From: Crambe crambe
Taxonomy: Eukaryota; Porifera; Demospongiae; Poecilosclerida; Crambeidae
Assembly: GCA_963924555.1 (NCBI GenBank)
Contig: OZ004587.1
Location: 682,001-746,000, forward strand
Length of the DNA: 64,000 nt
Reading direction: 5' to 3'
The translations under genes were made by a program, and so were the position numbers. Below are positions 3,323 to 44,775 of the stretch, piece by piece (within the stretch, counting starts at the first letter, position 1; each line of letters starts with the position of its first letter). The notes below the pieces were generated by a model that was not told the DNA's origin, searched no databases, and worked only from the letters and a program-made list of their open reading frames with translations.

Positions 3323-5997
3323 TTATGCCTTCGACTTCTTGGGCCTGTTGGACTGTAAAGGTTTTGTTTTTCTCCTTTCCCACACTTCGACTGCTGCCTC
3401 AACCTTTCTATTCCTCATGCTGACATCACTTCTGAGCTAGAAACTACAAACCACGAAACTAAACATTCAAAACTGAATAGGAACAGAACAGAACAGCTGC
3501 ACTTCCTAGCAAGCACACGACACTTAATAATAAAATTAATGATACACTTGCATTTGTGACAGACAATAGATAGCTGACAATATAGTAGGTAGTGGGTGAT
3601 GAAAATGAATGATGAATGATGCTAGGCAGAAAGAAACTGACTCATGATTTTTTCTATAATTATAATAATTATTTGCTTTCATGGAGTGATACCCCCCATG
3701 AAAGCTATACGTATGTCCCCTTGCCACTCTGTTTTTTGAATTCAATACTGGACTAAATACTAACATTATTTCAAACAAATCTACGAGGAATAATTGCAAT
3801 GGGAACTTGTCTGCACTAGCTATGACTGATGATCCACAAAAGATGAAATCTTTCCAACGGCAGATTAATTTATCATGACAGTAGCAAGAATTCAACATAA
3901 AAAAGAAAAGCTGCCGAGTTTGATGACAGTGAAACTAGGCAGCTATTTTGAGTAAAACATCTTGAAGAGTCCAACTATGATTATACCAGTCAAATAAAAG
4001 AACCCACTAAATTATTTAGTACCTACAAACAAAAAGTGGATTCACACACTCTGTCATTTGCTCCTTACCTTGGACTCATCAGAGATGTCAGTCCCCAGTC
4101 CTGAAGTTACTATGCTTTCACCATATGTTGAACGAGTGGCCACACTTGTTCCAGTCACGTCACTGATCGTACCAAATGCTGAATCAGCATCATCATCACC
4201 ACCCTTGACTTGAAGGGCAGCCATTTGTTCCTCCAGAGAGAGGGTAGGGGAGGGAGGATCTGGACAGAGAGAGAGAAAATATTTAAATTTTATTTTCCTG
4301 GATTATCACTGTTCATACTTGTGTCTGAACTGTCACTGTTTTCACCTTCACTTTCAGTAACTTCAATAGTGAGATCTGCAACATTAAAATATTTTTAATA
4401 ATACTTCATGCATCTACTTTGTCTACAAATAGAGTTGTTATAGTAAAAGGCACATACAAGAACTAATTTCCCATCCTCTAGCAATTAGTATACCTGATGT
4501 GGTCTTTGTTGACTTTTCATGTTCGGACATTTCTTCTGATGGAGATACAAGATTCAATGTTTGTTCTCCATAGGTGATGCTGAGGACTCCCATGTTCCTC
4601 AGAGCTTGCTGCTCTTCTCTGGTTAGCTTCTGGATCATCTTGTCTGCACTGGGCAAGGCTCTGAAGGTCAGTTGGACACAGCCGGGATCTGTTTTTAGCA
4701 ATCTCAATTTGTAAGAGCCTATTGCTGAGTTGAGACGAGAACAAAGCTTCTTCAATTCACCAACTGTCATAGCTTCAAAGTTGTATTCCTCAATTTTGAA
4801 CACAACAACTTTTCCATTCTTCTTCTCATCCTCGAAGACGTTACTTGGACACTCACATACTCTGCGTCTTGCATACTTTTCAAAACTTGCTGCATACTCT
4901 TTCAGCAACACTTTGAGGTGATGTTGCTCATCTTCAAAGAGACAAAGGATGAGTAACTCAATCAAATCATAGTCAAAAAATGACCAATGCTTCTCTGCTT
5001 CATCAAATAATTTATCAATTGTATCACAATCTTCAAATATCTCACGATATCTATGATTTTTTCTCGTAATGATGCGTATGATTTCTTTAGCCGTTGATTC
5101 TGATCTTTTCAAGGCTCTCCTTAGCTGAAACTCAAGACTTATGAAATCATTTTCAATACTTGCAGTATCTTCTTTCAGACGATAGATGAGGTTGGTTCTT
5201 TCATGATCAGGCATGTCTTTTGATAGATATGGAAAGAGTGCCTTAACATCTGCAGAGTTAAAAATAAAATTATTTGAGTGCTTTGATAAATCATAATAAT
5301 AATAATACTAGATGTACTAGGCTATATACCTACCTGGTGAATGAGAAATCTTGAGGTATTTCTCCTCGATGACCTTAGCTATTGCAGGATGGTTTACTGG
5401 TAGTGCTTTCAGTGCTGAGCAGAGATTCTTCCACGTTGCCTCCAAGCCCTGACCTGCCAGCCAGTCCATCAGCATTTGGCCGAAACACTCTGCTGGATCA
5501 TCTTTGAATTTTTTTCTTATTGCTTCAAGAGAGGAAGGACGCAGTCCCAATTCCACCCCCAAATCAAACCATTTCACTTGGACATCCCAAATACAACTCC
5601 TCACTTCTTTCAGGTCATCCGTTACCAACACAGCTGAAGGACATGATAAATTAATAGCAGTGATTATTGTCTGTTGGCTAACTGAATAATTCATGAGGGC
5701 AGTCCAGTGTAGCATATTGCTGTTATTTTGCTAACTGGACAAAATCATCTTCCAGTAACTATAAGATTTCATCATCTAAAAACAGTGTATCGTTATTTGA
5801 AATTCATTTGAATAATTATTTTTGATTCATAAAAAAAATTACAGTAGCCAGTTATATTAAGCTTAATATTAAATGATAAACTTATTAATATTCATAGCTG
5901 GTAGTAGCATGCAATGAATTTGCCTTATAAATCCAAAGGACTTGCTATATTATTATTCTTGCCAGTTTAATAACTCACTTCCTTGGCCAGGATTCAT
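3323..5997 (-). CDS. Death-domain protein with unnamed central domain, unit 1
   Basis: Five exons join with GT-AG sites and consistent phase: 5997-5979, 5633-5334, 5249-4494, 4259-4069 and 3436-3323, giving 459 aa. Start is ATG at 5997 (MNPGQG). Residues about 10-100 form a death domain (KWFDLGVELGL, CFGQMLMDWLAG, TWKNLCSALKAL), a fold that builds homotypic signalling assemblies in apoptosis and innate immunity. Residues about 107-358 form a conserved domain I cannot name: a helical part with HWSFFDYDLIELLI, then YARRRVCECPSNVF, then an alpha/beta-like end (VQLTFRALPSAD, GVLSITYGEQ). The C-terminus is acidic/Ser-Thr-rich, ending in a basic exon (RRKTKPLQSNRPKKSKA). No signal peptide or membrane segment. 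Exon 4 could instead splice in phase to the ankyrin exon at 1068. The function beyond death-fold signalling is inference. Confidence 0.8.
4290..4375 (-). CDS. Alternative terminal exon with Ser/Asp tail, unit 1
   Basis: After an acceptor (ATGTTGCAG), in the phase left by exon 3 of the death-domain gene, a frame encodes a 27-residue acidic tail containing SEGENSDSSDTSMNSD and then stops at 4290. Using it would end the protein here and give a short isoform with neither the basic tail nor ankyrin repeats. The sequence is conserved at 20,027-20,112 and 42,7xx-42,6xx in the other units. An internal GTGAAA could also act as a donor. Whether it is used is unknown. Confidence 0.45.
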
Positions 5998-6418
5998 CTT
6001 GATGTTAGAGTTTCAAGAGGAAGGGGAGAACTAGCTATGTGTCTGTACAAAGGACAGGTTGAAGGTGGCCACCAGATGAGCTTGGGAGTGGAAGGTGTTT
6101 GGAGTGGGGGAAGAAAGAGCACTGATCAAGAGATTAAAGTGTCTTGACGGAGAAAGTGTGCTCCTTTAATCGAACCCTACGTATAATTCTGTCTTAGTGT
6201 TGATAACGCTCTACAAAGACTGTTGACTTAATGACAAGATGTGGTACGAGCCACGCCCCCTGAATGATACAGTCAAATTCGGGCGCTATACACTCACACT
6301 AGGTTGGATTGAGTAGTGAACTAGTTTTGTGTATACGGTAAACTGTATAACTCAAAGAACGATAGCTATGGCTACACTTAGCGAAAATCTTGGGTGTGGC
6401 TGGGATAAACAAACCTCA

Positions 6419-6431
6419 CGCGCATGCGCAG
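6419..6431. promoter_or_regulatory. NRF1-like palindrome upstream of death-domain gene, unit 1
   Basis: CGCGCATGCGCAG matches the NRF1 palindrome consensus. It lies about 420 bp upstream of the ATG at 5997 and is repeated at the matching place in unit 2 (23,002-23,014). In unit 3 the matching stretch near 45,130 has diverged. Confidence 0.4.
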
Positions 6432-7083: not shown

Positions 7084-7295
7084 TGTGTAACTATTCATAA
7101 TAGCTGTATTATAACTCTAGCTTATAAGTTCACCATGCATGGAGACTGTCCTCCACCTGCTGACAGAGTTCCGCAGGTTTTTTTAGTTTCCACTGCAGAA
7201 TTAAATGACCCACATCTCAAATGTAGCCAGAGGATCACGTACAATAGAAGGTAGTCTACCAGCTTATCCTGCACCCTTAAAAGTTGCATCAGCGA

Positions 7296-8108: not shown

Positions 8109-8109
8109 G

Positions 8110-10230: not shown

Positions 10231-11820
10231 TCACTTGGTGGCATGAGTGTTATCTGCCTTGCTCTGGAGGTTGGGGGTGGGGTCACTCTCATCATCATAA
10301 AGTCGTAACTTCCAGCTGCATTCTAAAAGGAACATGTACACACTAGAGTGAGGCAAGCACACACATACAATGAATTCTAATAAGTTCAATGAATTTACCA
10401 TGCACAATGAATTCTAAGTAGAGCCTCAAACTGGTTCTGCATTTATATTTTATTGGATTGAATGAGACATGCCCTACATACATACATACATATGCAAAGT
10501 ACTAGGGCAATGTACAACAATTGAGTAGCAGCGAGCTAGCGAGCAAGTATTCCTATAGGCTTTTGTGCTGATAGCTATTCATTTGTCCTTAGAAGATTTT
10601 GATGTGAGTTTTATATGTAAGTGGCAAGCAGCTGCATATAATTATAGAAAACTGTAATGCTTACCTCAAAACACCTAGTGCTTACGATAAGCCTCGAGCC
10701 TGCTGCTCAAAAGGCTGTAGAAATAGTTCATTTGTGCTTTGCTGTTGAGTTATGTAAGTGGCAGGCAGCTGCATGCATAGAAAGCTAAGTACTTACCACA
10801 AAGCACTTAGATATGTCTAGTGCCTACAATCCACTTAGATAAGCCTAGCCCTACTATCCAGCATGCTATAAACAAAGGACACTTCAAAAGAGGACAAGTC
10901 TCTCTCAAAAAAAGAATACCTTTGTATATACACTCTATACAAAATAACCTCCAAAAGAGGATAACCTCTCTACAAAGAAGTGTTAGCTTACCAGTGATAT
11001 ATTCCTGTATCTGTTGCTCGGTAGGAAGGTCATGAAGAACATTGTCCAGGTATTGCAGTCGATGTAGAGTCATTTCTATCCAACATGGTGTTCCTTTGAT
11101 GCTCTGCCTGTGATAATCAAGACCCCAGCCCTTGACGAAACTCAGACAAAGGATGCACAGACACCCCAGGTCATCCACTCTGATCCCCTTGACCATAGCA
11201 TTCAAATTACCTAAACAGAAAGAAGTTTGATTCTCTCTCTTGATAATATCTTACCACATACGTACATACTGTAACAGGTAAATCTGTAATGCAGTGCATA
11301 ATGAAATGGTAAGTGATGAGAGATTACATATTTGTGTGCAGTGGAACCTCCAATTAATGGACATACTTGGGACCATCCTTTGGTCTATTTGTAGAGGTGG
11401 TCCACATTTGGAGGGTATAGTACATACAAAGGTACTTTTAGATTGAGAGGTTTGACACCTTTCAGAGTGTCCTTTATCAGAAGTTCCAATGTACTAACAA
11501 CACTTATTTCTCTTGTTCTTTTTCTGGTGTTACTATGAGAAGTTCATCTGAAGTCTCATCAAATTCACATCATGTAAATGTGCAAAATTATTCCACTGAA
11601 TCTACTCACACATATACATACATACCTCTAACAGCAGCTGTATGGATATCCATGGCAGCACAAGCTTCGGCAGCCTGTTTCTGCATCTTGCCATAGCATT
11701 GGTGGAGATCAAAGACTGCTTTGGGGTGAACAGCATCTCCTGGGACTTGCACAAACACACTATGTTCACTCATGCAATGAATCCACACATCTCCATTATC
11801 CTTCTCTTCAAGAATCGCTC
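10231..11820 (-). CDS. Smad4-like MH2 domain, 3' exons, unit 1
   Basis: Three phased exons: 11820-11626, 11210-10992 and 10322-10231. The joined product reads [89 protein letters not shown], then an unusual tail ([20 protein letters not shown]). Co-Smads (Smad4) use this MH2 surface to join receptor Smads in TGF-beta/BMP signalling in the nucleus. The order and motifs match the C-terminal half of the Smad4 MH2, including the Ala-rich insert before the conserved VDDLRRLCIL segment. The MH1 DNA-binding domain and first half of MH2 were not found in the 3.5 kb upstream, so this is a fragment or has distant 5' exons. The tail exon is longer than in known Smad4. Confidence 0.8.
10866..10980. repeat. 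GGACA fold-back repeat beside Smad exon, unit 1
   Basis: In the intron just after the second MH2 exon: phrases AAAGGACACTTCAAAAGAGG, ACAAGTCTCTCTC and CCTCCAAAAGAGGATAACC. Same family as 6,944-7,083; the match is 28,644-28,760. Confidence 0.45.
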
Positions 11821-12219
11821 CTAGAAAACAAAGCACAAACAGTTTTAATTTGGGGGAGAAAAAGAATGATGTGGACGCCATAAAAACCCATTACAATCAG
11901 GGGATTCCCCTCACCAAGCTGCAAGAGGAAATTTGAATGCAAAGGCCGAAAAAAAAAGAAAAAAAAAGACTTTTCCATTACAGAATGAATTACAGTGAAA
12001 GCAGGAAAGTAGGCAGGGGGAAAATCAATTCACAGTAATTGTTCTTGTTGTTTTTGTTTTGGGGGGACATGGCAGGAGATCCTCCCACTTCCTCTCCCCA
12101 ACCCTTCATTATTTGAATGGATATGTAAATGAAGTGAGATGAAGTTAGCCTTTCAGTGGCTGATGGAAAAGGATAGAACATTGTCTTTGACTAAGGTAGT
12201 CAGGAAAATATGACTAATG

Positions 12220-15568: not shown

Positions 15569-16849
15569 TTAGTGAGTAAGTAAGTATTTCACCACCTCAC
15601 TGTGACCCTTCTCTAGGGCCAACTGGAGTGGTGTCTCGTCAAACTTGTTCATGATGGTTGGGGGGCAATGGATGTGTTCAATGAAATGCTTGACAATGGC
15701 AAGTTGACCATATTTGGCTGCATAATGGAGCGGAGTCTCTCCACCGACATCTTGACACATCGAGTTGCATCCCTTGTTTTGGGTTAAGTAGTTTACGATG
15801 GAGAGGTGTCCTTTCTTAGCTGCCATGTGAAGAGGTGTGACATTATCTTCATCCAGACTGTTGGGGTCACAGCCATGCCTCTGAACCAAGTTGATGACGA
15901 GGTGGAGGTGACCCTCTTGAGAAGCATGATGGAGTGGTCGTCTTCCTAATTGACCGGGAAGATTAGGACTGCAATGCATGATATTTATTAAATAGTCTAC
16001 TACATCACTATGTCCACAAAGAGCTGCCTCGTGAAGTGGTGTGCTGTTATGATTGTCTGTACTGAGTGGATGACACTTTCTCTCTTCACATAAATACTTG
16101 ACAGTAGATAAGTGTCCGTTCTTTGCAGCGAGATGTAGGGGGGTGGCTTGATCGTTGTCTCTACTGGCAGGGTGACAGCCACACTCGATTATGAAGAACT
16201 TGACAATGGACAAGTGACCCTTCTGGGCAGCCATAAAGAGAGGTCCTCTACCAGCCACACCACATGGGAGGTTGGGATCGCATCGACAGTCTTTGATCAG
16301 ATACATTACGATATCGATGTGCCCCTCCAGAGCTGCCACGTGGATGGGAGTGGTCTTGTGTGAGGTGGAGTCTGAAAATATGTCCTGAATGGACATGTAC
16401 TGAAGCATCTTCTCCATCAAATACTTTACAGTTTTCAAATTTCCACCATGACAGGCATTATGTAGAGATGAGTAGCCATCTTCATCCTGGTGGAGTGGAT
16501 CCATTTGATGATTTTCTACTAAATACTCGACTGTCGAGAGATGCCCTGCTTGAGCTGCTCTGTGGAGAGGTGTAGTTCCAAGCTGACCTGAAGGTGCAGG
16601 GTTGCATTGAACTTGGTCGATTAGGTACTTGAGCACGTCCAGTCTTCCACTGTATGCTGCAACATGTAATACGGTATCACCCTCCCTGTCCTTGGTCAAG
16701 GGATTGAGCCCCTCTGTGACGAGATGCTTGACTTGTTGTAGGTTTCCTTGTTTGGCTGCACGGTGTAGTTGTTGATTGTGCTCTGTTGTGGTGTGTGCTT
16801 GGTCTAACATGTCGAGACGTGGGTCGTCCAAGTCTCTCCCTCTGTTGTC
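15569..16849 (-). CDS. Ankyrin-repeat exon, unit 2 (complete 3' end)
   Basis: One exon of 427 codons (426 aa plus stop at 15,569) with 12 ankyrin repeats after a short N-terminal linker (DLDDPRLDMLDQAHTTTEHN). The exon begins after an acceptor (CACGTTACAG) with GAC AAC AGA GGG, phase 0. The apparent start of the longest frame at 16,831 is a TTG, an ordinary Leu codon. Translation therefore comes from an upstream exon or the internal Met (MLDQAH). The fourth repeat is long and irregular (MLQYMSIQDIFSDSTS), as in all three units. No signal peptide or membrane helix. Its likely role is a protein-binding module, possibly the C-terminal part of the death-domain gene at 19,083-22,575, whose exon 4 leaves the same phase. 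Confidence 0.85.
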   Translation of the reverse strand, partial: DNRGRDLDDPRLDMLDQAHTTTEHNQQLHRAAKQGNLQQVKHLVTEGLNPLTKDREGDTVLHVAAYSGRLDVLKYLIDQVQCNPAPSGQLGTTPLHRAAQAGHLSTVEYLVENHQMDPLHQDEDGYSSLHNACHGGNLKTVKYLMEKMLQYMSIQDIFSDSTSHKTTPIHVAALEGHIDIVMYLIKDCRCDPNLPCGVAGRGPLFMAAQKGHLSIVKFFIIECGCHPASRDNDQATPLHLAAKNGHLSTVKYLCEERKCHPLSTDNHNSTPLHEAALCGHSDVVDYLINIMHCSPNLPGQLGRRPLHHASQEGHLHLVINLVQRHGCDPNSLDEDNVTPLHMAAKKGHLSIVNYLTQNKGCNSMCQDVGGETPLHYAAKYGQLAIVKHFIEHIHCPPTIMNKFDETPLQLALEKGHSEVVKYLLTH

Positions 16850-18660: not shown

Positions 18661-19082
18661 CTTGTTTAATTGTTTGATCACCCTGATGAAGGCTAGAGTA
18701 TTCTGGTCGAAACGTTGGTGGTTTGTTTCATAAGCTAATTTTATGAGAACTAATTCTATTGAATATGTTTATTGTTTATTAGTTAAAAATAATAAATTGG
18801 CGATAATAAGATTATCGCCAAGGGCTGGGCGATAATTGGACAATATCGCCAGTCCTGGTGTCACTAGTGCACTTATAATTCAAACAAACAAGGATAGAAA
18901 ATTGTAAAGGTATAGCTAGTTTAATTTCATTTATCATTTGAATAATTATTATTTCTATTAAAAAAGAAAAATGTTCTTGGTCTCGATCTTCATCCTTCAG
19001 TGTAGATGGAGGAATCCTAATGGTACTAGCAACCTTACCTGTGCTCATAGTTTCATCCCTAACTACCATGCGACTCATCAGA

Positions 19083-22000
19083 TTATGCCTTCGACATCTT
19101 GGGCCTGTTGGACTGTAAAAGTTTTGTTTTTCTCCTTTCCCACACTTTGACTGCTGCCTCAACCTTTCTATTCCTCATGCTGACATCACTTCTGAGCTAG
19201 AAACTACAAACCACGAAACTAAACATTCAAAACTGAATAGGAACAGAACAGAACAGCTGCACTTCCTAGCAAGCACACGACACTTAATAATAAAATTAAT
19301 GATACACTTGCATTTGTGACAGACAATAGATAGCTGACAATATAGTAGGTAGTGGGTGATGAAAATGAATGATGAATGATGCTAGGCAGAAAGAAACTGA
19401 CTCATGATTTTTTCTATAATTATAATAATTATTTGCTTTCATGGAGTGATACCCCCCATGAAAGCTATACGTATGTCCCCTTGCCACTCTGTTTTTTGAA
19501 TTCAATACTGGACTAAATACTAACATTATTCAAAGCTATTTCAAACAAATCTACGAGGAATAATTCCAATGGGAACTTGTCTGCACTAGCTATGACTGAT
19601 GATCCACGAAATCTTTCCAACGGCAGATTAATTTATCATGACAGTAGCAAGAATTCAACATAAAAAAGAAAAGCTGCCGAGTTTGATGACAGTGAAACTA
19701 GGCAGCTATTTTAAGTGAAACATCTTGAAGAGTCCAACTATGATTATACCAGTCAAATAAAAGAACCCACTAAATTTAGTTCCCACTCTGTCATTTGCTC
19801 CTTACCTTGGACTCATTGGAGATGTCAGTCCCCAGTCCTGAAGTTACTATGCTTTCACCGTATGTTGAACGAGTGGTCACACTTGTTCCAGTCACGTCAC
19901 TGATCGTACCAAATGCTGAGTCAGCATCATCATCACCACCCTTGACTTGAAGGGCAGCCATTGGTTCCTCCAGAGAGAGGGTAGGGGAGGGAGGACCTGG
20001 ACAGAGAGAGAGAAAATATTTAAATTTTATTTTCCTGGATTATCACTGTTCATACTTGTGTCTGAACTGTCACTGTTTTCACCTTCACTTTCAGTAACTT
20101 CAATAGTGAGATCTGCAACATTAAAATATTTTTTAAAATACTTCATGCATCTACTTTGTCTACAAATAGAGTTGCTATAGTAAAAGGCACATACAAGAAC
20201 TGATTTCCCATTCTCTAGCAATTAGTATACCTGATGTGGTCTTCTTTGTTGCCTCTTCATGTTCGGACATTTCTTCTGATGGAGATGCAAGGTTCAATAT
20301 TTGTTCTCCATAGGTGATGCTGAGGACTCCCATGTTCCTCAGAGCCTGCTGCTCTTCTCTGGTTAGCTTCTGGATCATCTCATCTGCATTGGGCAAGGCT
20401 CTAAAGGTCAGTTGGACACAGCCGGGATCTGTTTTCAGCAATCTCAAGTTGTAAGAGCCTATTGCTGAGTTGAGATGAAAGCAAAGCTTCTTTAATTCGT
20501 CCAAAGTCATTTTTTCAAAGTTGCAATCTTCTATTTTAAACACAACAATTTTTCCATTCTTCTTCTCATCCTCAAAGACGTTACTTGGACACTCGCATAT
20601 TCTGCGTCTTGCATATTCTTTGAAATATGATATATAAGCTTTTAGCCGAACCATGAGGGGATGCTCATCTTCAAAGATGCAACCGATGAGCAACTGAATC
20701 AGATCGTAGTCAAAGAATGACCAGTGTTGCTCTGCTTCATCAAGCAGTTCATCAATCGTGTCACAGTCTTTAAATGCTTCACGATATTTGTCATCTTTTC
20801 TGGAAATAATTCGAATGATTTCTTTGGCTGTTGTTCCCAATCTCAATGCTCTGCGTAATCGAGTCTCAAGAGCTATGAATTTGTTTTTGATATCGTCAGT
20901 ATCTTTAGATAAACGAAAGATGAAGTTGGTTCGGACGTGTTCAGGCATGTCTTTGGATAAGTAGGGGAAGAGAGCCTCAATATCTGCATAGTTACAAATC
21001 ATCAAGAAGGGGAATAGATCATGTTTAAATACAGTGTAACATTCTGGTGTTTTACAGTGTCAGCTATGTGGCTATACCTGGTGGATGAGAAGTCTTGAGG
21101 TATTTCTCGTCAATGACCTTAGCTATTGCAGGATGGTTTACTGGTAGTGCTTTCAGTGCTGAGCATAGATTCTTCCACGTTGCCTCCAAGCCCTGACCTG
21201 CCAGCCAGTCCATTATCATCTGACTGAAACACTCTGTTGGATCGTCTCTGAACTTTGTTCTTATTGCTTCAAGAGAGGAAGGACGCAGTCCCAACTCCAC
21301 CCCCAAATGGAACCATTTCACTTGGACATCCCAAATACAACTCCTCACTTCTTTCAGGTCATCCATCACCAACACAGCTGAAGAAATTAATGGCAGTGAT
21401 TATTGATTTATTGTCTATTGGCTAACTAAGTTCATGAGGGTAATCAAGTGTAGCATACTGCTGTTAACTGACTATAATAGTAGCTATGTATTTTGATAGC
21501 TGGACAAAACCATCTTCCAGTAACTATAATTTATAGCTTCTGAGATTAAAAAAACAAAAAACAAAAACAGATTCCAAATGAATGTTATTATTATTATTAT
21601 TATTATTATTACAATAACTAATCAACTATTTGTGTGATCTAATAGTGAATTATTATTCTTCATCCATATAGCTAAAAATAACAAAAAAAGTTACAGTAGC
21701 CAGTTAGCTTAATGATAAACTTATTAATATTCATCAGCTGGTAGTAGCATGCAATAAATTAGCCTCGTTCCCAGGCTCTCAGTGAAACGGGAAATGTGGG
21801 GGCGGAAAGGAGAGCACGCACGGGCGTGTAAATTTTGACCACATAATTATATTCATAACACGATTGATGATGTAATTATTAAGTAAACGTCACAATTAGT
21901 ACAAACGTGCGTATTGCATGTCGCTTGTGTGAGCAGAGTGCAGCCATTGCCTTGTTCAGCAGTTCTGGATTATCATAGAAGTGGGCTTTTAGGATCAACA

Positions 22001-22575
22001 AACTCCTGGATGTCCCTGAGCTAGCTCCAGATGACCCCTTCCCATCACACATCTGTTAAGCTTGCAAGAGGAGAATAGTTTCCTTGGAGAAGGCAACTGC
22101 AAACATTACTAGCTTCAAAGAGCTGGCCAGATCTTCTTTGCGGAGATCCCTTGAGAGCAGGGGCACGAACATATCCTTGCCAGCTTCTGCTCTTCCTTCA
22201 GCAACAGTTCAGGTAAACCAAGCATTGACAGGGCATGAGAAAGCGCTTGCGGATAGTGGGAACTTGAATCGCTTGAAGAAACGCTAGAAGAAACACTCTC
22301 AGAAACGAACTCGCCATCTTGCACAAAAAAAACGCTGATTAGACAAAATAATAATAATTATGATGAAATCAAAAACGGGAAAGTACGGAGGGAATCCAAA
22401 TCCCCCGGAATGTGAGGGATCCGGTCTGCAGTAGAAACCAGGCTCTCCTTTCCGCCCCCACATTTCCCGTTTCACTGAGAGCCTGGGAACGAGGCTAGCA
22501 ATAAATGTGCCTTAAAAATACAAGGACTTGTTATTCATGCCAGTTTAATAACTTACTTTCTTGGCCAGGATTCAT
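19083..22575 (-). CDS. Death-domain protein with unnamed central domain, unit 2
   Basis: Exons 22575-22557, 21377-21078, 20983-20231, 19996-19806 and 19196-19083 join in phase to 458 aa. Start MNPGQE at 22575. The death domain (residues about 10-100) has KWFHLGVELGL, CFSQMIMDWLAG and TWKNLCSALKAL. The central domain differs most from units 1 and 3: EHVRTNFIFRLSKDTDDIKN, HWSFFDYDLIQLLIGC and YISYFKEYARRRICECP. The core W-FFDY and CECPSNVFEDE motifs are kept. The C-terminal basic exon reads RRKTKLLQSNRPKMSKA. Intron 1 holds a 738-bp transposon (21,760-22,497). An alternative exon (20,112-20,027) adds an acidic tail and stop. Substitutions in the central helices with conserved frame and motifs suggest a working paralogue. 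Confidence 0.8.
20027..20112 (-). CDS. Alternative terminal exon with Ser/Asp tail, unit 2
   Basis: Counterpart of 4290-4375: in phase with exon 3, tail SEGENSDSSDTSMNSD, then stop. Length (86 bp) and frame are unchanged between units. Confidence 0.45.
21585..21611. repeat. (ATT)n microsatellite
   Basis: About nine ATT units in intron 1 of the unit 2 death-domain gene; not present in unit 1 at the same place. Confidence 0.85.
21760..22497. mobile_element. 738-bp DNA transposon with 56-bp terminal repeats and 9-bp target duplication
   Basis: Ends read TAGCCTCGTTCCCAGG and the exact complement; the terminal inverted repeats are identical for about 56 bp. GCAATAAAT flanks both sides (21,751-21,759 and 22,498-22,506). 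Unit 1 shows a single GCAATGAAT and no insert near 5,912, an empty site. The identical ends suggest recent insertion. The interior has no transposase. A minus-strand stretch (22,324-22,115) reads ALSMLGL, LLKEEQKLA and, in another frame, GKDMFV, resembling the region around motif I of RecQ-like helicases. That is probably a captured or decayed gene piece. A 9-bp duplication suits Mutator-like elements; superfamily uncertain. Confidence 0.75.
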
Positions 22576-27987: not shown

Positions 27988-29613
27988 CTAGTCATGTGAT
28001 GTCATGTGATACTCACTTGGTGGCATGAGTGTTATCTGCCTTGCTCTGGAGGTTGGGGGTGGGGTCACTCTCATCGTCATTGACTTCCAGCTGCATTCTA
28101 AAAGGAACATGTACACACTAGAGTGAGGCAAGCACACACATACAATGAATTCTAATATGTTCAATGAATTTACCATGCACAATGAATTCTAAGTAGAGCC
28201 TCAAACTGGTTCTGCATTTATATTTTATTGGATTGAATGAGACATGCCCTACATACATACATACATATGCAAAGTACTAGGGCAATGTACAACATTTGAG
28301 TAGCAGCGAGCTAGCGAGCAAGTATTCCTATAGGCTTTTGTGCTGATAGCTATTCATTTGTCCTTAAAAAATTTTGATGTGAGTTTTATATGTAAGTGGC
28401 AAGCAGCTGCATACATAGAAAACTGTAATGCTTACCTCAAAATACCTAGTGCTTATGATAAGCCTCCATCGAGCCTGCTGCTCAAAAGTCTGTAGAAATA
28501 GTTCATTTATGCTTTGCTGTTGAGTTATGTAAGTGGCAGGCAGCTGCATGCATAGAAAGCTAAGTACTTACCACAAAGCACTTAGATATGTCTAGTGCCT
28601 ACAATCCACTTAGATAAGCCTAGCCCTACTATCCAGCATGCTATAAACAAAGGACACTACAAAAGAGGACAAGTCTCTCTCAAAAAAAGAATACCTTTGT
28701 ATATACACTCTATACAAAATAACCTCCAAAAGAGGATAACCTCTCTACAAAGAAGTGTTAGCTTACCAGTGATATATTCCTGTATCTGTTGCTCGGTAGG
28801 AAGGTCATGAAGAACATTGTCCAGGTATTGCAGTCGATGTAGAGTCATTTCTATCCAACATGGTGTTCCTTTGATGCTCTGCCTGCGATAATCAAGACCC
28901 CAGCCCTTGAGGAAACTCAGATAAAGGATGCACAGACACCTCAGGTCATCCACTCTGATCCCCTTGACCATAGAGAATGTTTGCATTCAAATTACCTAAA
29001 CAAATATGAGATTCTCTCTCTTGATAACATCTTACCACATACGTACATACTGTAACAGGTAAATCTGTAATGCAGTGCATAATGAAATGGTAAGTGATGA
29101 GAGATTACATCAGTAAGGATATTTGTGTGCATTGGAACCTCCAATTAGTGGACATACTTGGGACCATCCTTTGGTCTATTTGTAGAGAGGTGGTCCACAT
29201 TTGGAGGGTATAGTACATACAAAGGTACTTTTAGATTGAGAGGTTTGTCATCTTTCAGAGTGTCCTTTATCAGAAGTTACAATGTACAAACAACAATTAT
29301 TTCTCTCGTTCTTTTTCTGGTGTTACTATGAGAAGTTCATCTGAAGTCTCATCAAATCCACATCATGTAAATGTGTAAAATTATTCCACTGAATCTACTC
29401 ACACATATACATACATACCTCTAACAGCAGCTGTATGGATATCCATGGCAGCATAAGCTTTGGCAGCCTGTTTCTGCATCTCGCCATAGCATTGGTGGAG
29501 ATCAAAGACTGCTTTGGGGTGAACAGCATCTCCTGGGACTTGCACAAACACACTATGTTCACTCATGCAATGAATCCACACATCTCCATTATCCTTCTCT
29601 TCAAGAATCGCTC
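27988..29613 (-). pseudogene. Smad4-like MH2 domain, 3' exons, unit 2 (damaged)
   Basis: Exons match unit 1: 29613-29419, 28995-28767 and 28097-27988. The first reads [16 protein letters not shown] and is intact. The second has 10 extra bases just after its acceptor (GCAAACATTCTCTATG against GCTATG), so the joined frame shifts and stops soon. The MH2 part itself ([37 protein letters not shown]) stays open from an internal Met. The tail exon has lost 7 bases, giving a different 35-residue end ([19 protein letters not shown]) when read in phase with the MH2 exon. The second exon is closer to canonical Smad4 at two sites (DDLRCL and DYRRQS) than unit 1. Probably a pseudogene unless another acceptor is used. 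Confidence 0.65.
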
Positions 29614-29619
29614 CTAGAA

Positions 29620-32600
29620 AACAAAGCACATACAGTTTTAATTTGGGGGAGAAAAAGAATGATGTGGATGCCATGAAACCCATTACAATCAGGGGATTCC
29701 CCTCACCAAGCTGCAAGAGGAAATTTGAATGCAAAGGCCGAAAAAACAACAACAAAAAAAACAACTTTTCCATTACAGAATGAATTACAGTGAAAGCAGG
29801 AAAGTAGGCAGGGGGGAATCAATTCACAGTAATCGTTCTTGTTGTTTTTGTTTTGGGGGGACATGGCAGGAGATCCTCCCACTTCCTCTCCCCAACCCTT
29901 CATTACTTGAATGGATATGTAAATGAAGTGAGATGAAGTTAGCCTTTCAGTGGCTGATGGAAAAGGATAGAACATTGTCTTTGACTAAGGTAGTCAGGAA
30001 AATATGACTAATTTACACGCAGGGTATCTGATATACTTATTTCCAAGTGCCCAGATTATCCTCCAAGGCTTTCAATGGAATCCTACTGAGCATTCAAACA
30101 TTACCAAATAGTTTATACAACACTGACCACTGACGTGTTTTTAAGTGGGTACTGTCCCTACATGTCCTGATGCACACCACAAGGTTATTTTAGTAATGCA
30201 ACATTGTTATTCATTGCATAACATAACATACTCCATTGTATATCTTAAAGTGCAGAGCACTCCAGTGATCACTACCAATCTCTCATCAACTTCAACCAAG
30301 GACCCTCCTACCTTAATATTTATGGGTACGTACAAAATTTAGTGGAGAATCAACCAGTTTAGTCTTAACATGTACTTATTACCAGTTGCCATTCCCAAAT
30401 ACTTCTTCATACTTAAGCTCTCCATAACTCATGACTACTAGTAGCCTTGGGGCTGAAATTTGGTGTGGAGCTAGTCCAACCATTATAGAACACATGACAA
30501 AAGTTTCAGATAATTTCATCAAAGCATGTTTAAGAAATATCTGAATGAACTACTTCACCATTCCATGTCTTTACCATTCAAAGTAATTATGAATTATAAT
30601 TGTATTTCAAGTAGGAACAATATCAGTTTGAACTTTGAACTCAGCTAAAATTTATTACCCATTGATAATAGTGACCTTAAGGTATACCATGTCACTATCC
30701 GTCCCACTTGGCAGTCACTGGCAAAAGCTGTTTCTATATAATGGTCGTACATTTAAGGCTGAGCAAACTTAATACTGAGTTTATCGTCACCTCCGTCATC
30801 CAATTTTGTCAGCAAAATATTGAATTTTGATACGATAAATAGTTTATGTGGCTCAATGCGAGATATTTACTGTATGGTACAAGACATAGGTCAGTATTTG
30901 CTTGCGGACATGCCATGTGTTACATGACAAGTACCAGTCTAGTCATGTGATCTGATGTTTAATTACCATGTGTGACACATGATGACATGATATTTTGAGA
31001 AAAAACTATTACTCTGATATCGGCACTTTATGAGAAAGAAAGCGGTCAACTATTATAACTCGCTCTTCTTCATGATAATTCCATCTACATTTAAAAGTCA
31101 GAGTATATATTGTAGCTGCACTATTGGTGGGCTTAATATAGTGATATTATTGATACAGTATGCTTTGCACATTGTAAGAGAAGATCCTATGGATTTCAGT
31201 AAATCATGACCTCATATATACATACTATGAGGTCTAAGTGTACATTTCAACAAGTGGGTTCAGTCGTACGACATCTTTCCATTAGGATGACATGGGATTA
31301 GTGAGGAAGATGAAGTACTCTACATGATTATGCGGAAGGTTCACCAGACACTGCATGTATCTGTAAGCTTTCCACTCCATTACTACTAATCAGAACTGGA
31401 AGGGAAAGGGAAGAGATTTTAAGTCAGAGAGTGGACCAGCACTAAACTTATTACAACCCACAAATACGTATTCCTGGAGCCATTACAAGCAAAAAACCTA
31501 CACTAAAACACTCTTGATATCCACCCAGAAAAAAAGCATCAAATTCTGCACTTGAAATTATTAGCACTTCATGCCACTCCAGCCTAAAAATCAACAATCA
31601 ATCTCTGCCCCCAAGCAATGATATACAACATTAATTAGCAATACCTTTATTGCTATATCATCTTGGCCTGTCATGGGAGTGAAGTAGGAATAGTTAGCTC
31701 GTAGTTTGGTAATGTGATGGGTAAGGGGTTACTTGACTGAAGTATACTCTTGTTGCTGGGAGTTCTATGGACAATCCCTATCCTATGCACATGGAACTGT
31801 AGGATAGGACGGACACATAGGATGGAGCCTGCCATGGGAGTCCTATGGATAATCCCTATCTTATGTATATGGGACTATAGGATAGGACAGACACAGTCCC
31901 TATATTAAGTACATTGGACTGTCAAATACATAGTAGGACAGAACACACAAACAGGTACCTATGGGAGTTCCTATGTAACTCCAAGGGAAACCACCTTGTA
32001 ACATTGAAGATTATGGGACCCCATAGGACTTTTCTCTGTCCTAGATGATACATCCATAGATACTATCCTCCATAGACAAGGGATTACATATGATGGCGAA
32101 CTTGGACACGAGTGACTTTCACACTATTCAAATTACTAAGCAAAACATAAGTAATGCTTTACACTTTCTTGAAATAACAATTGACCAGTAGTCAGTGGAA
32201 ACAACGTACTCTAGTCTTACCAATTAACAGTGAAGGCGGTGGAGTTGGTATAGCCATCAAAGCTCCAACTGTTGTGCATCTGACCACCATTACAATACAT
32301 ACCCATTTCCAAAGCCACCTACACATTTATAGACAATGAATGATCAAGTGTGCTTTATTTGGAATTCTTACTCCAGCGAGATTCCATGGACTTTTCCACT
32401 GTCCTCTGACCCCCAGGAGCAACTGTAGATCCAGTTGACATGCATCTTGTAGTCTTGTACGTAGATTAAGGGCTGTCTCATCCGTCACCTTCCCATCAAG
32501 CAGACACTGATGCTCCATGTGTCACACCCACTGCACACAGGCTGTTATTGACCACAGCTGAGATCAGTCCAGACTCCTGCACACCCGAACAAAAGGAGAC

Positions 32601-37233: not shown

Positions 37234-39129
37234 TCATTGTTTAGTGAGTAAGTATTCCACCACCTCACTGTGACCCTTCTCTAGGGCCAACTGGAGTGGT
37301 GTCTCGTCAAACTTGTTCTTGATGGTTGGGGGGCAATGGATGTGTTCAATGAAATGCTTGACAATGGCAAGTTGACCATATTTGGCTGCATAATGGAGCG
37401 GAGTCTCTCCACCGACATCTTGACACATCGAGTTGCATCCCTTGTTTTGGGTTAAGTAGTTTACGATGGAGAGGTGTCCATTCCTAGCTGCCATGTGAAG
37501 AGGTGTGACATTATCGTCATCCAGACTGTTGGGGTCACAGCCATGCCTCTCAACCAAGTTGATGACAAGGTGGAGATGACCCTCTTGAGAAGCATCATGG
37601 AGTGGTTGTCTTCCTTGCCAACCAGGAACATCAGGACTGCAATGAATGACATTTAATAAATAGTCTACTACATCACTATGTCCACGAAGGGCTGCACTGT
37701 GAAGTGGTGTGTTGTTTCTATTGTTTGTACCGAGTGGATCACACTTTCTCTCTTCACATAAATACTTGACAGTAGATAAGTGTCCTTTCTGTGCAGCGAG
37801 ATGTAGGGGGGTGGCTTGATTGTTGTCTCTACTGGCAGGGTCACAGCCATGCCTCTCAACCAAGTTGATGACGAGGTGGAGGTGACCCTCTTGAGAAGCA
37901 TGATGGAGTGGTCGTCTTCCTAATTGACCGGGAACATTAGGACTGCAATGCATGACATTTATTAAATAGTCTACTACATCACTCTGTCCACAAAGGGCTG
38001 CATCGTGAAGTGGTGTGTTGTTATCATTGTCTGTACTGAGTGGATCACACTTTCTCTCTTCACATAAATACTTGACAGTAGATAAGTGTCCGAACTGTGC
38101 AGCGAGATGTAGGGGGGTGGCTTGATCGTTGTCTCTACTGGCAGGGTCACAGCCATGCCTCTCAACCAAGTTGATGACGAGGTGGAGGTGACCCTCTTGA
38201 GAAGCATCATGGAGTGGTCGTCTTCCTAATTGACCGGGAACATTAGGACTGCAATGCATGACATTTATTAAATAGTCTACTACATCACTATGTCCTTGAT
38301 GGGCTGCCTCGTGAAGTGGTGTGTTGTTATCATTGTCTGTACTGAGTGGATAACACTTTCTCTCTTCACATAAATACTTGACAGTAGAGAAGTGTCCGAA
38401 CTGTGCAGCGAGATGTAGGGGGGTGGTTTGATTGTTGTCTCTACTGGCAGGGTCACAGCCACACTCCATTATCAAGAACTTGACAATGGACAAGTGACCC
38501 TCCTGGGTAGCAGCAAAGAGAGGTCCTCTACCATCCACACCACTAGGGAGGTTGGGGTCGCATCGACAGTCTTTGATCAGATACTTTACGATATCGATGT
38601 GCCCCTTCAGTGCTGCCACGTGTATGGGAGTGGTCTTGTATGAGGTGGAGTCTGAAAATATGTCCTGAATGGACATGTACTGAAGCATCTTCTCCATCAA
38701 ATACTTTACAGTTTTCAAATTTCCACCATGACAGGCATTATGTAGAGATGAGTAGCCATCTTCATCCTGGTGGAGTGGATCCATTTGATGATTTTCTACT
38801 AAATACTCGACTGTTGAGAGATGCCCTGCTTGAGCTGCATTGTGGAGAGGTGTAGTTCCCTGCCACCCTGAAGGTGCAGGGTTGCATTGAACTTCGTCGA
38901 TGAGGTACTTGAGCACCTCCAGTCTGCCGTAGTCGGCTGCAACATGCAGTACTGTATCACCATTCCTATCCTCGGTCAAGGGATTGAGCCCCTTTGTGAT
39001 GAGATGCTTGACTTGTTCTAGGTTTCCTTCTTTGGCTGCATGGTGTAGTTGTTGATTGTGCTCTGTTGTGGTGTGTGCCGAGTCTAACATGTCCAGACGT
39101 GGGTCGTCCAAGTCTCTCCCTCTGTTGTC
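37234..39129 (-). CDS. Ankyrin-repeat exon, unit 3 (expanded)
   Basis: One exon of 632 codons (631 aa plus stop), about 18 ankyrin repeats. It starts after an acceptor (CACATCACAG) at GAC AAC AGA, phase 0, like the other units. The extra 204 residues against unit 2 come from two more copies of a 102-residue, three-repeat block. The copies start at ASRDN and end at ERHGCDP; in the DNA they recur exactly every 306 bp (ACTGGCAGGGTCACAGCC at 37,831, 38,137 and 38,443). The cap and first five repeats are the same as in unit 2. The frame is intact throughout, which argues for selection. Probably a ligand- or partner-binding surface of a death-domain signalling protein (41,669-44,775), by phase and position; that link is inference. 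Confidence 0.87.
   Translation of the reverse strand, partial: DNRGRDLDDPRLDMLDSAHTTTEHNQQLHHAAKEGNLEQVKHLITKGLNPLTEDRNGDTVLHVAADYGRLEVLKYLIDEVQCNPAPSGWQGTTPLHNAAQAGHLSTVEYLVENHQMDPLHQDEDGYSSLHNACHGGNLKTVKYLMEKMLQYMSIQDIFSDSTSYKTTPIHVAALKGHIDIVKYLIKDCRCDPNLPSGVDGRGPLFAATQEGHLSIVKFLIMECGCDPASRDNNQTTPLHLAAQFGHFSTVKYLCEERKCYPLSTDNDNNTPLHEAAHQGHSDVVDYLINVMHCSPNVPGQLGRRPLHDASQEGHLHLVINLVERHGCDPASRDNDQATPLHLAAQFGHLSTVKYLCEERKCDPLSTDNDNNTPLHDAALCGQSDVVDYLINVMHCSPNVPGQLGRRPLHHASQEGHLHLVINLVERHGCDPASRDNNQATPLHLAAQKGHLSTVKYLCEERKCDPLGTNNRNNTPLHSAALRGHSDVVDYLLNVIHCSPDVPGWQGRQPLHDASQEGHLHLVINLVERHGCDPNSLDDDNVTPLHMAARNGHLSIVNYLTQNKGCNSMCQDVGGETPLHYAAKYGQLAIVKHFIEHIHCPPTIKNKFDETPLQLALEKGHSEVVEYLLTKQ
37531..38448. 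repeat. Three tandem 306-bp supra-repeats inside ankyrin exon
   Basis: Three near-identical 306-bp blocks (102 aa, three ankyrin repeats each); units 1 and 2 carry one. Exact multiples of three keep the frame open. Confidence 0.85.
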
Positions 39130-39774: not shown

Positions 39775-41250
39775 AAAGGCCATGTAGGGTTAGTCTGTAC
39801 TTTAACAGTTTCTGTCAACAAAAATCAAAATAATGCTGGCTTCAATAATAATCCCTACATCACTGCCTCCCACCAAGCTGCTTTGAACGAGCATCTATTC
39901 CAACCAACAAATCTGGGTTTAAAAGTGTGGATGTTATACCAAGGATAAAATGACTCCATCAACCCTGCAAGACCTTTCATCTGCAAGTCAATCGTCTTCT
40001 GGAAATTCTACAGTCTGTTTTCATTTGACATTCCCATCTACCCTTCAATCAAACAGATGCTCAGGTAAGAAAATAGTACAGTGATCTCTTTTCCCTTTCA
40101 GTATAGAGAAACATTTTTTATAGTATAATACCACTCTCACTATACTGACGTATTCCAATTACTGCCAGATACATTATTAACCATATAATTATACCCTTCA
40201 AATTTTCTTTGGATGTTATGTAGGACCTACTAGCAACCCACAAAATTATTCTCTACGAGATCCTCCTCTGGTTTCTAACTCTTTAGCTGCAATGTATGGC
40301 AGCTTAACACAAGATCCTCCTCAATTTCTAGTTCCTTACATGAACGTTTATTGGCTTCTCCTTCCGCCTTCCAATCATAGCACCCCACTATTACAAGAAC
40401 ATCCGGTGAGCTCTTCACATCCATCAATATCTCTCACACTGGCTTCTTCGGTGAGTTCTTCAGGTCCAACCCATCCTCAGATATCTCCCACACTGGTGAG
40501 CTCTCCACCCACGCTTGCTTCTTCTTCAGGTCCAACCCTTTCTCAGATATTTCTCACACTGGCTTTTTCAGTGAGCTCTTTACATCCAACCCTTCCTCAG
40601 ATATCTCCCACACTGGCTTCTCCTATAGTAAACCCGTTAGTGCCCGCTGGGTTAATCCCAGAGGACCTCTCTGATATTCTTGCTGCCCCACTAGAGGATG
40701 CAGCTATTTCAAAGAAATGTACTAAAAGAATTACAGGAGTTAGAGCTCTAACTGCAGATGACTTTTCTGAAATGCTGTTGGAAGAGGGAAAGAAAAAAAA
40801 AGAAGAGGCTGAAAAATTGAAGTAAGATAAGAAAGAAGAAAGGGAACGTAAGAAAAAAGAAAGGGAAGAGAAGAAAGAAAAGGAGGCAAAGAAGGAAGAA
40901 ATGGAAGAAAAGAAGAAAGAAAGGAAGCAGAGAGAGAAAAGAATGCAAACGGAGCACTCTGTGACAAGGCTGTTGTGTAGTGATGATGAAGACCCTCCAC
41001 CTATATAAAGTCCTTCTACATCTCACATGACATCTGCAAAAGATACCAGTGAGTCTGACCCAGGAGCAAACATCCGACCTAGTTGAAGTACACATCTTCC
41101 TACATGTTTAGGGATGAAAGTGATGTGCATTGTGTCATCGTAATGAGCCTGAAGGTCTGGCAGCAAGTATCGTCTTTTGAGTCGATCGTGACGAGTGTGG
41201 CTGCTGGGTACATAATTTTGCTCAAGCTCCATATAGCTTAACAGCCAGTG
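39775..41250 (+). mobile_element. Remnant resembling pogo/Tigger-like DNA transposon 3' end, unit 3
   Basis: Best-preserved copy: an acceptor near 40,223 opens a frame that runs, through LVPYMNVYWLLLPPSNHST, the Pro/Ser repeats, LSDILAAPLEDAA and RALTADDFSEMLLEE, to a TAA in the Lys/Glu-rich tail (about 40,825). The upstream MTPSTLQDLSSAS piece is also present with a GTAAG donor. No catalytic core or terminal repeats. A host exon on the opposite strand cannot be excluded. Confidence 0.4.
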
Positions 41251-41668
41251 TAGTTATTACTTGTTTAATTGTTTGATCACCCTGATGAAGGCTAGAGTAT
41301 TCTGGTCGAAACGTTGGTGGTTTGTTTCATAAGCTAATTTTATGAGAACTAATTCTATTGAATATGTTTATTGTTTATTAGTTAAAAATAACAAATTGAC
41401 GATAATAAGATATGTTGTCCAATTATTATCACCAAGGGCTGGGCGATAATTGGACGATATCGCCTGTTCTGGTGTCACTAGTGCACTTATAATTCAAATA
41501 AACAAGGATAGAAAATTGTAAAGGTATAGCTAGTTTAATTTCATTTATCATTCTATTAAAAAAGAAAAATGTTCTTCATCCTTCAGTGTAGATGGAGGAA
41601 TCCTAATGGTACTAGCAACCTTACCTGTGCTCATAGTTTCATCCCTAACTACCATGCGACTCATCAGA

Positions 41669-44600
41669 TTATGCCTTCGACTTCTTGGGCCTGTTGGACT
41701 TCAAAGGTTTTGTTTTTCTCCTTTCCCACACTTTGACTGCTGCCTCAACCTTTCTATTCCTCATGCTGACATCACTTCTGAGCTAGAAACTACAAGCCAC
41801 GAAACTAAACATTCGAAACTGAATAGGAACAGAACAGAACAGCTGCACTTCCCAGCAAGCACACGACATAAAATTAATGATACACTTGCATTTGTGACAG
41901 ACAATAGATAGCTGACAATATAGTAGGTAGTGGGTGATGAAAATGAATGATGAATGATGCTAGGCAGAAAGAAACTGACTCATGATTTTTTCTATAATTA
42001 TAATAATTATTTGCTTTCATGGAGTGATACCCCCCATGAAAGCTATACGTATGTCCCCTTGCCACTCTGTTTTTTGAATTCAATACTGGACTAAATACTA
42101 ACATTATTCGAAGTTATTTCAAACAAATTTATGAGGAATAATTGCAATGGGAACTTGTCTGCACTAGCTATGACTGATGATCCACAAAAGATCTGAAAAT
42201 CCTTTCCAACGGCAGATCTGATTGACAGTAGCAAGAATTCAGAAAAGCCACCGAGTTGATGACAATAAAACTAGGCAACTATTTGCATATTGAAGAGTCC
42301 AACTATGATTATACCAGTCAAATAAAAGACCCACTAAATTATTTAGTACCTACAAACAAAAAGTAGATTCACACTCTGTCATTTGCTCCTTACCTTGGAC
42401 TCATTGGAGATGTCAGTCCCCAGTCCTGAAGTTACTATGCTTTCACCGTATGTTGAACGAGTGGCCACACTTGTTCCAGTCATGACACTAATCGTACCGA
42501 ATGCTGAGTCAGCATCATCATCACCACCCTTGACTTGAAGGGCAGCCATTGGTTCCCCCAGAGAGAGGGTAGGGGAGGGAGGATCTAGGCAGGGAGGGAG
42601 AAAATATTAGCTTTATTTTCCTGGATTATCACTGTTCATACTTGTGTCTGAACTGTCACTGATTTCACCTTCACTTTCAGAAACTTCAACAGTTAGATCT
42701 GCAACATTAAAATAGTTAAAAAAATACTTCATGCATCTACTTTGTCTACAAATAGAGTTGCTATAGTAAAAGACACATACAAGAACTGATTTCCCATCCT
42801 CTAGCAATTAGTATACCTGATGTGGTCTTCTTTGTTGCCTCTTCATGTTCAGCCATTTCTACTGATGGAGATACAAGATTCAATGTTTGTTCTCCATAGG
42901 TGATGCTGAGGACTCCCATGTTTCTCAGAGCTTGTTTCTCTTCTCTGGTTAGCTTCTGAATCATCTCGTCTGCACTGGGCAAGGCTCTGAATGTCAGTTG
43001 GACACAACCGGGATCTGTTTTCAGCAATCTTAATTTGTAAGAGCCTATAGCTGAGTTGAGACGAGAACAAAGCTTCTTCAATTCACCGACTGTCATGGCT
43101 TCGAAGTTACATTCCTCTATTTTGAACACAACAACTTTTCCAATTTTTTTCTCATCCTCAAAGACGTTACTAGGACACTCGCATATTCTGCGTCTTGCAT
43201 ACTTTTCGAAACTTGCTATGTAATCTTTCAGCAACACTTTGAGATGATGTTGCTCATCTTCGAAGAGACAAAGAATGAGTAACTCGATTAGATTGTAGTC
43301 AAAAAATGACCAATGCTTCTCTGCTTCATCAAGTAATTTATCAATCGTATCACAATCTTCAAATATCTCACGATATTTATGATTTTTTCTCATAATGATG
43401 CGTATGATCTCTTTAGCTGTTATTTCTGATCTTATCAAGGCTCTCCTTAGCCGAAACTCAAGAGTTATGAAGTCATTTTCGATACTTTCAGTATCTTCTT
43501 TCAGACGATGGATGAGATTGGTTCTTTCATGTTCAGGCATGTCTTTAGATAGATATGGAAAGAGAGCCTTAACATCTGCAGAGATACCAGTTAGTAATTA
43601 CATGCACCAACCTCCTATAGCTAAAGGAGTCATGAAGCTATACATATACACTTCATCTAACTTACCTGCCGAACTTGTGTTTGTCTCTGTTGGACAGTTG
43701 GAATCTGATGATTGTGTACCTACGTACGAAAAATTATAATTTAGCTACATAAAATTTAATGTCACATTGACATTTTCTGTCATGCGTTCTAAAATTAATT
43801 CCGGCAGGATTAAAAAGCAAACAAAATATGGGTTCATAATAGATAGTAAGAAAACATGAATGCAGTCAATACCCATATTGTTGAACTCCAAGTATTTAGT
43901 ATAGTTACATAGTTACCTGTTTGACCAGTCTCACAATACTTTTTCTCAATAGCCTCTGATAAAGAAGAGAATTTGATAAGTGGTGCCTTGAGAGCTGTGG
44001 CAAGGTTTTTCCATGTACATGCAGAGCCTTGACCCATCAACCAATCCAGAACGACTTGATTGAAACACTCTGCTGGGTCATTGTTGAACTTGGTCCTAAT
44101 GGCTTCAAGGTCTGAAGGATCTAGTTCCAACTCCACTCCTAGGTGGTACCACTTAGTGTAGGCAGCCCAGATAGAGTTCCTTACTGCCTTCAGGTCCTTA
44201 ACAACTAACAGAGCTACAACAAAAAAAGATCAGTTGCTATGGATTAACAATATTAATACTACAGCCAGCAGTTATCAGTGGAGGAAATGGAAGACCTTCA
44301 GGACTGAATATAATATTTTATCTCCAAATTGAAATTTGTTCAATGCCTAGTGATGCTATAAGGCTAGACATGCCCCTTAATAATTATAAGTGAAGCTTAT
44401 GAATGGCAATAACCGGATAAGAAAGTTCTGGTAATCACAAATATGTTGAGCATGCACATCATATAGGAGAGAGGATTCTTCAACTGGGAAGCTTGGGGGA
44501 GAAAAATCCCCCGCCCCAAGAAAATAAAGCAACTTTTATCCGAAGCTGGAGTTCTTGCCAACTTTCTTGAGAAACATCTGCATAATTCAGTGCCACTCTA

Positions 44601-44775
44601 GCATACCTACCTTTCCTGTAGCTGTGAACATAAAGGTAGTTACAGTAGCTATGCAGTGCATGGTATATAGCTGTTAAATTTTAGCTAGTGCGCATGCTCC
44701 ATATAAGTTATTTCCGGTTCCGGTTAAGAATGTAGCACTTAGATGGCTAGACTTACTCTTTGGACCAGGATTCAT
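41669..44775 (-). CDS. Death-domain protein with unnamed central domain, unit 3
   Basis: Six exons: 44775-44757, 44213-43917, 43719-43666, 43575-42817, 42584-42394 and 41782-41669, all phase-consistent, giving 477 aa. Start MNPGPK. The death domain (residues about 10-100) is the most divergent: KWYHLGVELELDPSDLEAIR, CFNQVVLDWLMGQG, TWKNLATALKA. An 18-residue Ser/Thr-rich cassette (GTQSSDSNCPTETNTSSA) from exon 3 is unique to this unit. The central domain is close to unit 1 (HWSFFDYNLIELLILCLFED, YARRRICECPSNVF, GVLSITYGEQ). The last exon ends KPLKSNRPKKSKA. No leader or membrane segment. Death-fold adaptor or receptor-proximal signalling is the likely role; the central domain is unassigned. 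Confidence 0.8.
42634..42702 (-). CDS. Alternative terminal exon with Ser/Asp tail, unit 3 (approximate bounds)
   Basis: Counterpart of 4290-4375. The tail reads SESEGEISDSSDTSMNSD, followed by a stop near 42,610. It follows a GTTGCAG acceptor near 42,703, in phase with exon 3 of this gene. Confidence 0.4.

Follow-up and report, generated by a model that had tools for sequence, protein, structure and literature searches.

A 64,000-nucleotide stretch of Crambe crambe DNA (the window) carries three related genes on its minus strand. From their sequence and by analogy with described proteins, they are likely (at a probability of about 0.7) to be a tandem array of intracellular sensor or adaptor genes of the NCOA6-clade kind found in the sponge Amphimedon, with a Death domain, a helical and possibly DED-like module, a TRADD-N domain, a Ser/Thr-rich linker and ankyrin repeats in that order. 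The exons and their frames, the Death and ankyrin domains, the mosaic make-up of the copies and the way their differences gather at ankyrin contact positions can be read from the DNA directly or are well supported by it, and the mosaic exons together with the contact-position differences offer a testable case for recognition of varied ligands.

Organisation of the array

The three genes, A (5997-4069), B (22575-19806) and C (44775-42394), keep intact frames and share one exon order, in which an ATG exon with 19 coding bases is followed by a Death exon, a central exon of 753-759 bases, a small acidic exon of 57 bases, a Ser/Thr-rich linker exon of 191 bases and an ankyrin exon, all on the minus strand. 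The coding part of the first exon occupies 5979-5997 in A (from the ATG, MNPGQG), 22557-22575 in B and 44757-44775 in C, with the ATG and the gtgagt donor at corresponding sites in all three copies. The small acidic exon lies at 4319-4375 in A, between a GCAG acceptor and the donor ACAA/gtatga, which is our choice and the least certain splice site, and at 20056-20112 in B and 42642-42698 in C; if it is read through, a stop follows the residues NPGK in all three copies, ahead of the linker and ankyrin exons. The linker exon (4069-4259 in A, 19806-19996 in B and 42394-42584 in C) ends in phase 0 at AAG/gtaagg, or TCCAAG/gtaagg in A, and in B and C both the small and the linker exon were placed by their splice sites and the joined frame. 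Matching exons and open frames in all three copies, with an ankyrin exon downstream of each, bear out the first-pass annotation in its claim of three frame-intact death-domain paralogues lying next to ankyrin exons. The lengths that it gave (459, 458 and 477 aa) were not reproduced, the five pre-ankyrin exons coding for 441 (A), 440 (B) and 441 (C) aa.

Talin-like exons adjoin the array on the minus strand at about 47469-54366 (an extent taken by eye from the list of open reading frames), and one of them, when searched, matched solved talin-1 at E 3e-59. Both inter-gene intervals hold SMAD4-like MH2 exon fragments (10807-11890 and 28657-29818, minus strand), inside the duplicated block; all four ORFs scanned in these intervals gave Pfam MH2 matches, two of them below cut-off, and the one SMAD4-like exon searched matched SMAD4 at E 5e-20. 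By these talin-1 and SMAD4 homologues, the window is read as animal-type DNA. A short plus-strand ORF at 57031-57483 has weak immunoglobulin-domain matches (best E 0.0022, below the Pfam cut-offs) and an apparent hydrophobic tail.

Probable joining to the ankyrin exon

The ankyrin exon most likely belongs to the same gene as the Death and TRADD-N exons, as judged from its splice acceptor and frame. All AG sites were listed in a stretch that starts 60 bases after the last donor and reaches about 130-170 bases into the ankyrin exon, giving 235 sites in A, 234 in B and 237 in C, and an acceptor was called strong if it read CAG or TAG, had at least 70% pyrimidines and had no AG in the 14 preceding bases, which left 4 (A), 6 (B) and 7 (C). 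The ankyrin acceptor, with 84% pyrimidines, is the sole strong acceptor that opens a long phase-0 frame (356, 426 and 631 aa in A, B and C), the next-best strong acceptors opening only 22 (A), 85 (B) and 22 (C) aa. The same ankyrin frame can also be entered from a weaker CAG 27 bases upstream. The joined frames run without internal stop in all three copies (797 aa in A, where the window edge cuts the exon, 866 in B and 1072 in C), although, because the copies are duplicates, in-frame joining in three of three comes close to one independent observation. The gene had earlier been ended before the ankyrin repeats, at a terminal exon (stop at 3323 in A) whose acceptor is AAG, with 32% pyrimidines, and which would add 26 aa. 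That exon is probably not real, and the strong in-phase acceptor and open joined frame make a single protein that includes the ankyrin repeats the most likely product.

Death domain and helical module

Each Death exon (5334-5633 in A, 21078-21377 in B, 43917-44213 in C) matches the Pfam Death family PF00531, with E-values of 1.7e-7, 4.4e-6 and 6.4e-4, respectively. The exon of C is divergent (53% amino acid identity to A) and its score of 20.2 bits is under Pfam's cut-off of 22.6, whereas A and B score above it; the death domain claimed at first pass is thus recovered over the cut-off in two copies and slightly under it in the third. Searched against the PDB, the Death profile gave five matches, all weak (E 0.27-0.75), with ankyrin-1 among them.

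The N-terminal 140 or so residues of the central exon are modelled as helical and are possibly a DED-like module. Neither the Pfam scan nor the PDB sequence search of this half returned a DED match. A separate model of 112 residues contains six helices at a pLDDT of 54.7, and among its 30 Foldseek matches the top TM-scores (0.45/0.50) belong to the DED of PEA-15, which yet ranks 13th with a non-significant E of 6.9. The likening to a DED is made because published architectures and the PEA-15 TM-score favour it.

Probable assignment of part of the central exon to TRADD-N

The central exon (4494-5249 in A, 20231-20983 in B, 42817-43575 in C) encodes about 251 residues in the alignment, and the three motifs noticed in the first-pass annotation, HWSFFDY, CECPSNVFEDE and GVLSITYGEQ, are indeed identical in all three copies. 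The length of roughly 250 residues that it gave for a single domain fits the exon, but the exon is better read as two parts, in copy A a helical module at residues ~1-140 and a TRADD-N domain at residues ~146-232. Profile matches and a predicted topology make it probable that the C-terminal ~95 residues form a TRADD-N domain. In each of the copies the best-scoring Pfam entry is PF13820 (Nuclear receptor coactivator 6, TRADD-N domain), with E 0.023 (A), 0.0047 (B) and 0.022 (C) for the whole exon and 0.0046 (A), 0.00061 (B) and 0.0038 (C) for the C-terminal part, where the scores of 17.2-20.0 bits are all below the Pfam cut-off of 22.5. A domain that could not at first be assigned to a named family is therefore weakly but consistently assignable to NCOA6/TRADD-N.

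An AlphaFold2 model of the whole exon, built from three sequences, is weak (pLDDT 58.9, with block means of 54-81 over residues 141-230). Its predicted order is strand 147-152, helix 162-175, strands 181-186 and 192-197, helices 199-207 and 210-218, and strand 221-226, then strand 229-232, which is a β-α-β-β-α-β order with the second helix split in two and a short extra strand, at low confidence. TRADD-N has been described as an RRM-like fold with a tiny-Ser motif conserved in the β2-β3 turn, the Ser being occasionally Cys (Kaur et al. 2021, PMC8195603); the low-confidence model matches the strand and helix order of that description, and a Gly-Cys pair (Gly189-Cys190 in all three copies) falls between strands 181-186 and 192-197, where the family has Gly-Ser/Cys, although residues 188-190 have pLDDT below 50.

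Foldseek searches of the central-exon model against the PDB gave 501 matches at E up to 10, none below 0.001, and TRADD is absent among the 50 of these that were listed. The first of the listed matches are translation-factor chains with rmsd above 13, and several ferredoxin-fold proteins among those listed carry higher probabilities (up to 0.63). PDB sequence searches with the central exon or its halves found no TRADD, only hemerythrin-like proteins, Kit, annexin and SKA1 at E of at least 0.085. The profile search and structure prediction that had been proposed for this domain point weakly to TRADD-N, with PF13820 on top in three of three copies and a low-confidence β-α-β-β-α-β order, at sub-cut-off scores and without TRADD among the listed Foldseek matches or in the PDB sequence searches. 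A scan of viral contigs for the central alignment found 261 pattern stretches and no relatives. In genome contigs, the TRADD-N part of copy A picked out 37 stretches and one match (25 codons within a 642-aa ORF of a Bacteroidales MAG), which was rejected as chance; by its motifs the ORF looks like a peptidyl-prolyl isomerase.

Mosaic structure and selection

The copies are, on well-supported sequence evidence, mosaics in which the death exon groups A with B and the helical module groups A with C. Sites at which two copies agree against the third, counted in the order A+B, A+C and B+C, number 96, 5 and 10 in the death exon, 13, 77 and 20 in the helical half of the central exon, and 16, 22 and 6 in its TRADD-N half. 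A chi-square over the death, helical and TRADD-N modules gives p 1.5e-27, a value that assumes independent sites, which conversion tracts are not. Counted in the same way, the last intron gives 51, 41 and 37, and the ankyrin stretch that was compared gives 25, 30 and 28 over its first three quarters. In the death exon, synonymous divergence between A and B is 0.16, and against C it is saturated or near saturation; in the helical half it is 0.30 between A and C and about 1.0 for B against either, and over the last 84 central-exon codons it is 0.15-0.34 in all pairs. Such patchy divergence is not what copies of one age would show; the mosaic pattern would be accounted for by gene conversion or by unequal recombination within the array.

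Intron DNA next to the coding exons is mostly 97-99% identical over long stretches in all three copies. The last intron (1400-4100, 16.9k-19.8k and 39.2k-42.4k), also mostly 97-99% identical, is more alike than the upstream coding exons, a likeness that suggests recent homogenisation or insertion. Frames at 18812-19174 (minus strand) and at 2087-2729 and 40181-40825 (plus strand), which we take to resemble the ends of pogo/Tigger transposases, were considered as the transposon source of the earlier terminal exon and set aside for want of Pfam support, which a transposon origin of the last intron likewise lacked.

The two large exons look like parts of functional genes under purifying selection, a reading supported by dN/dS values well under 1. 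The comparison of dN/dS across the three copies that had been proposed at first pass gives 0.24, 0.16 and 0.18 for the whole central exon (Nei-Gojobori), a range of 0.16-0.24 over all three pairs, and 0.05 to 0.49 in 42-codon slices. For the death exon it is 0.29 between A and B and 0.12 between B and C, the latter unreliable at a dS of 2.7, with A-C not computable. With 0-4 changes in the small exon and 6-10 in the linker exon, neither allows a firm dN/dS.

Ankyrin repeats and contact positions

The ankyrin exon was delimited by its repeats and its acceptor, which is in phase at CAG/GAC in A. It holds 10 pattern-matched repeats in the in-window part of A (1-1068, cut by the window edge), 12 in B (15569-16849) and 18 in C (37234-39129). 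C owes its six additional repeats to a three-repeat unit present in two more copies, which show up as self-matches at offsets of 306 and 612 bases.

Differences between copies were counted at repeat positions 2, 3, 5, 13, 14 and 33, which we take to be those randomised in designed ankyrin proteins, using only codons in the 33-residue register and excluding C repeats 9-14 from the comparisons with A and B. Designed ankyrin proteins bind through randomised positions on their concave surface (PMC8229355). Between A and B, the amino acid differs at 23 of 59 contact codons as against 13 of 262 others (Fisher 8e-11), and among 1,107,568 possible six-position sets only 50 cluster the differences equally or better. 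The corresponding counts are 17/59 against 23/262 for A-C (Fisher 1.2e-4) and 25/71 against 21/318 for B-C (Fisher 2.6e-9), the three pairs not being independent and the test covering the ankyrins of this array alone; among the repeats within C, 19 of 54 contact codons and 23 of 243 others differ (Fisher 9e-6). At contact codons dN/dS is 1.10 (A-B), 1.04 (A-C), 1.86 (B-C) and 1.05 (within C), with bootstrap pN/pS ranges that include 1, and at the remaining ankyrin codons it is 0.22, 0.46, 0.41 and 1.31. Because the other codons within C also exceed 1, dN/dS does not separate the two classes, whereas amino acid differences do. Positive selection on the contacts is not proven, all bootstrap ranges spanning 1, and the elevated change there may be relaxed constraint. 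What the differences show is that the putative binding face is the part of the repeats free, or pushed, to change.

Alternative explanations

One alternative, which we regard as unlikely, is that two separate families lie side by side, an adaptor gene of 400-470 aa with Death and TRADD-N domains and a distinct ankyrin gene, and that duplication copied both as one block. An ATG stands in frame 13 codons into the ankyrin exon, and the first gene would have two possible earlier ends, at the NPGK stop with the small exon unspliced or at the 26-aa terminal exon; the poor AAG acceptor of that terminal exon and the strong ankyrin acceptor, in phase in all three copies, count against such a division, as does the frequency of ankyrin repeats in sponge TRADD-N proteins, where they are reported to be among the two most common C-terminal partners (PMC8195603). 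A reading not exclusive of this one, and one that we hold to be improbable, makes the product a scaffold or transcription-linked protein whose ankyrin repeats anchor it to a fixed partner, as in NCOA6 or the ankyrin-type Death proteins. NCOA6, a coactivator, bears the same Pfam domain, PF13820 (PMC8195603), and ankyrin-1 is one of the five weak PDB matches of the Death profile, but a fixed partner predicts neither differences chiefly at contact positions nor tandem copies with altered repeat number.

It would be most surprising if the copies were partly non-functional duplicates or an assembly artefact of uncollapsed haplotypes, as the intron identity of mostly 97-99% over long stretches might suggest, since open frames and splice sites are kept in all three copies and dS in the death and central exons, which starts at 0.16 and reaches 0.66 or saturates, is too large and too patchy for alleles. 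An array of single sensor or adaptor genes, each running from Death domain to ankyrin repeats, is the reading that we prefer.

Proposed mechanism

In such a sensor, the ankyrin stack would serve as the input and bind a ligand. Binding would alter the contacts of TRADD-N, which, in the model of Kaur et al. (PMC8195603), otherwise keeps the flanking domains inactive; that TRADD-N acts as a switch was proposed there from its position and from motif conservation. The freed Death-fold end could then seed homotypic assembly, in which its partners would be FADD-, caspase- or kinase-like, and the assembly would trigger a cell-death or inflammatory response. In a study whose protein set included FADD, the adaptor tested from Amphimedon was reported to be supersaturable, as was the human counterpart (PMC13012725), which supports ancient Death-fold assembly. 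What is sensed would be diversified as genes duplicate, recombine in patches and change the contact surface of their ankyrin repeats.

A more far-reaching proposal, tentative and rather doubtful, is that the array is a repertoire-making locus, in which ectopic recombination that breaks at the signalling exons or inside them would place old Death and helical modules in new combinations on gene bodies shared more recently, while gain of the three-repeat (306-bp) unit and selection on contacts would alter recognition. If true, a sponge would diversify both the input and the output of its intracellular sensors, like NLR or VLR systems.

Comparison with known systems

Among the titles listed by literature searches, we recognised none as describing this array. 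The closest parallel is the expansion of NCOA6-clade TRADD-N proteins in Amphimedon, 357 in number, most of whose architectural types have one to three Death-like domains, then TRADD-N, then a variable C-terminus, with ankyrin repeats or SH3 plus LRRs as the commonest C-terminal domains (Kaur et al. 2021, PMC8195603). The Crambe genes probably share with these the order of Death-like domain, TRADD-N and ankyrin repeats, as well as the many paralogues and the variable C-terminal part, a likeness drawn at the level of architecture. The first-pass suggestion of an expanding innate-immune or apoptosis family fits this published expansion and the ankyrin divergence, its sensor function being argued from analogy.

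Vertebrate TRADD also combines Death and TRADD-N domains, and an adaptor role would be expected here as there, but in TRADD the TRADD-N domain comes first and the Death domain follows, the reverse of the order in the array, and ankyrin repeats are lacking; TRADD is moreover placed in a DEDD2/TRADD clade, other than the NCOA6 clade (PMC8195603). Cnidarian DED-TRADD-N-ankyrin (Fem1-like) proteins (PMC8195603) have the same order of Death-fold, TRADD-N and ankyrin, although a PF00531 Death domain is present in the Crambe genes and the likeness is drawn at the level of domain order. The Death-TRADD-N-ankyrin plan predicted for the array is thus already known from sponges, and what appears to be new are the mosaic copies, the extra ankyrin units of C and the contact-position divergence, of which the mosaic exons and ankyrin contact divergence are not mentioned in the portion of PMC8195603 drawn on here. 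That portion works at the level of protein architecture, and the array adds the genomic anatomy of one cluster of the sponge-type TRADD-N expansion.
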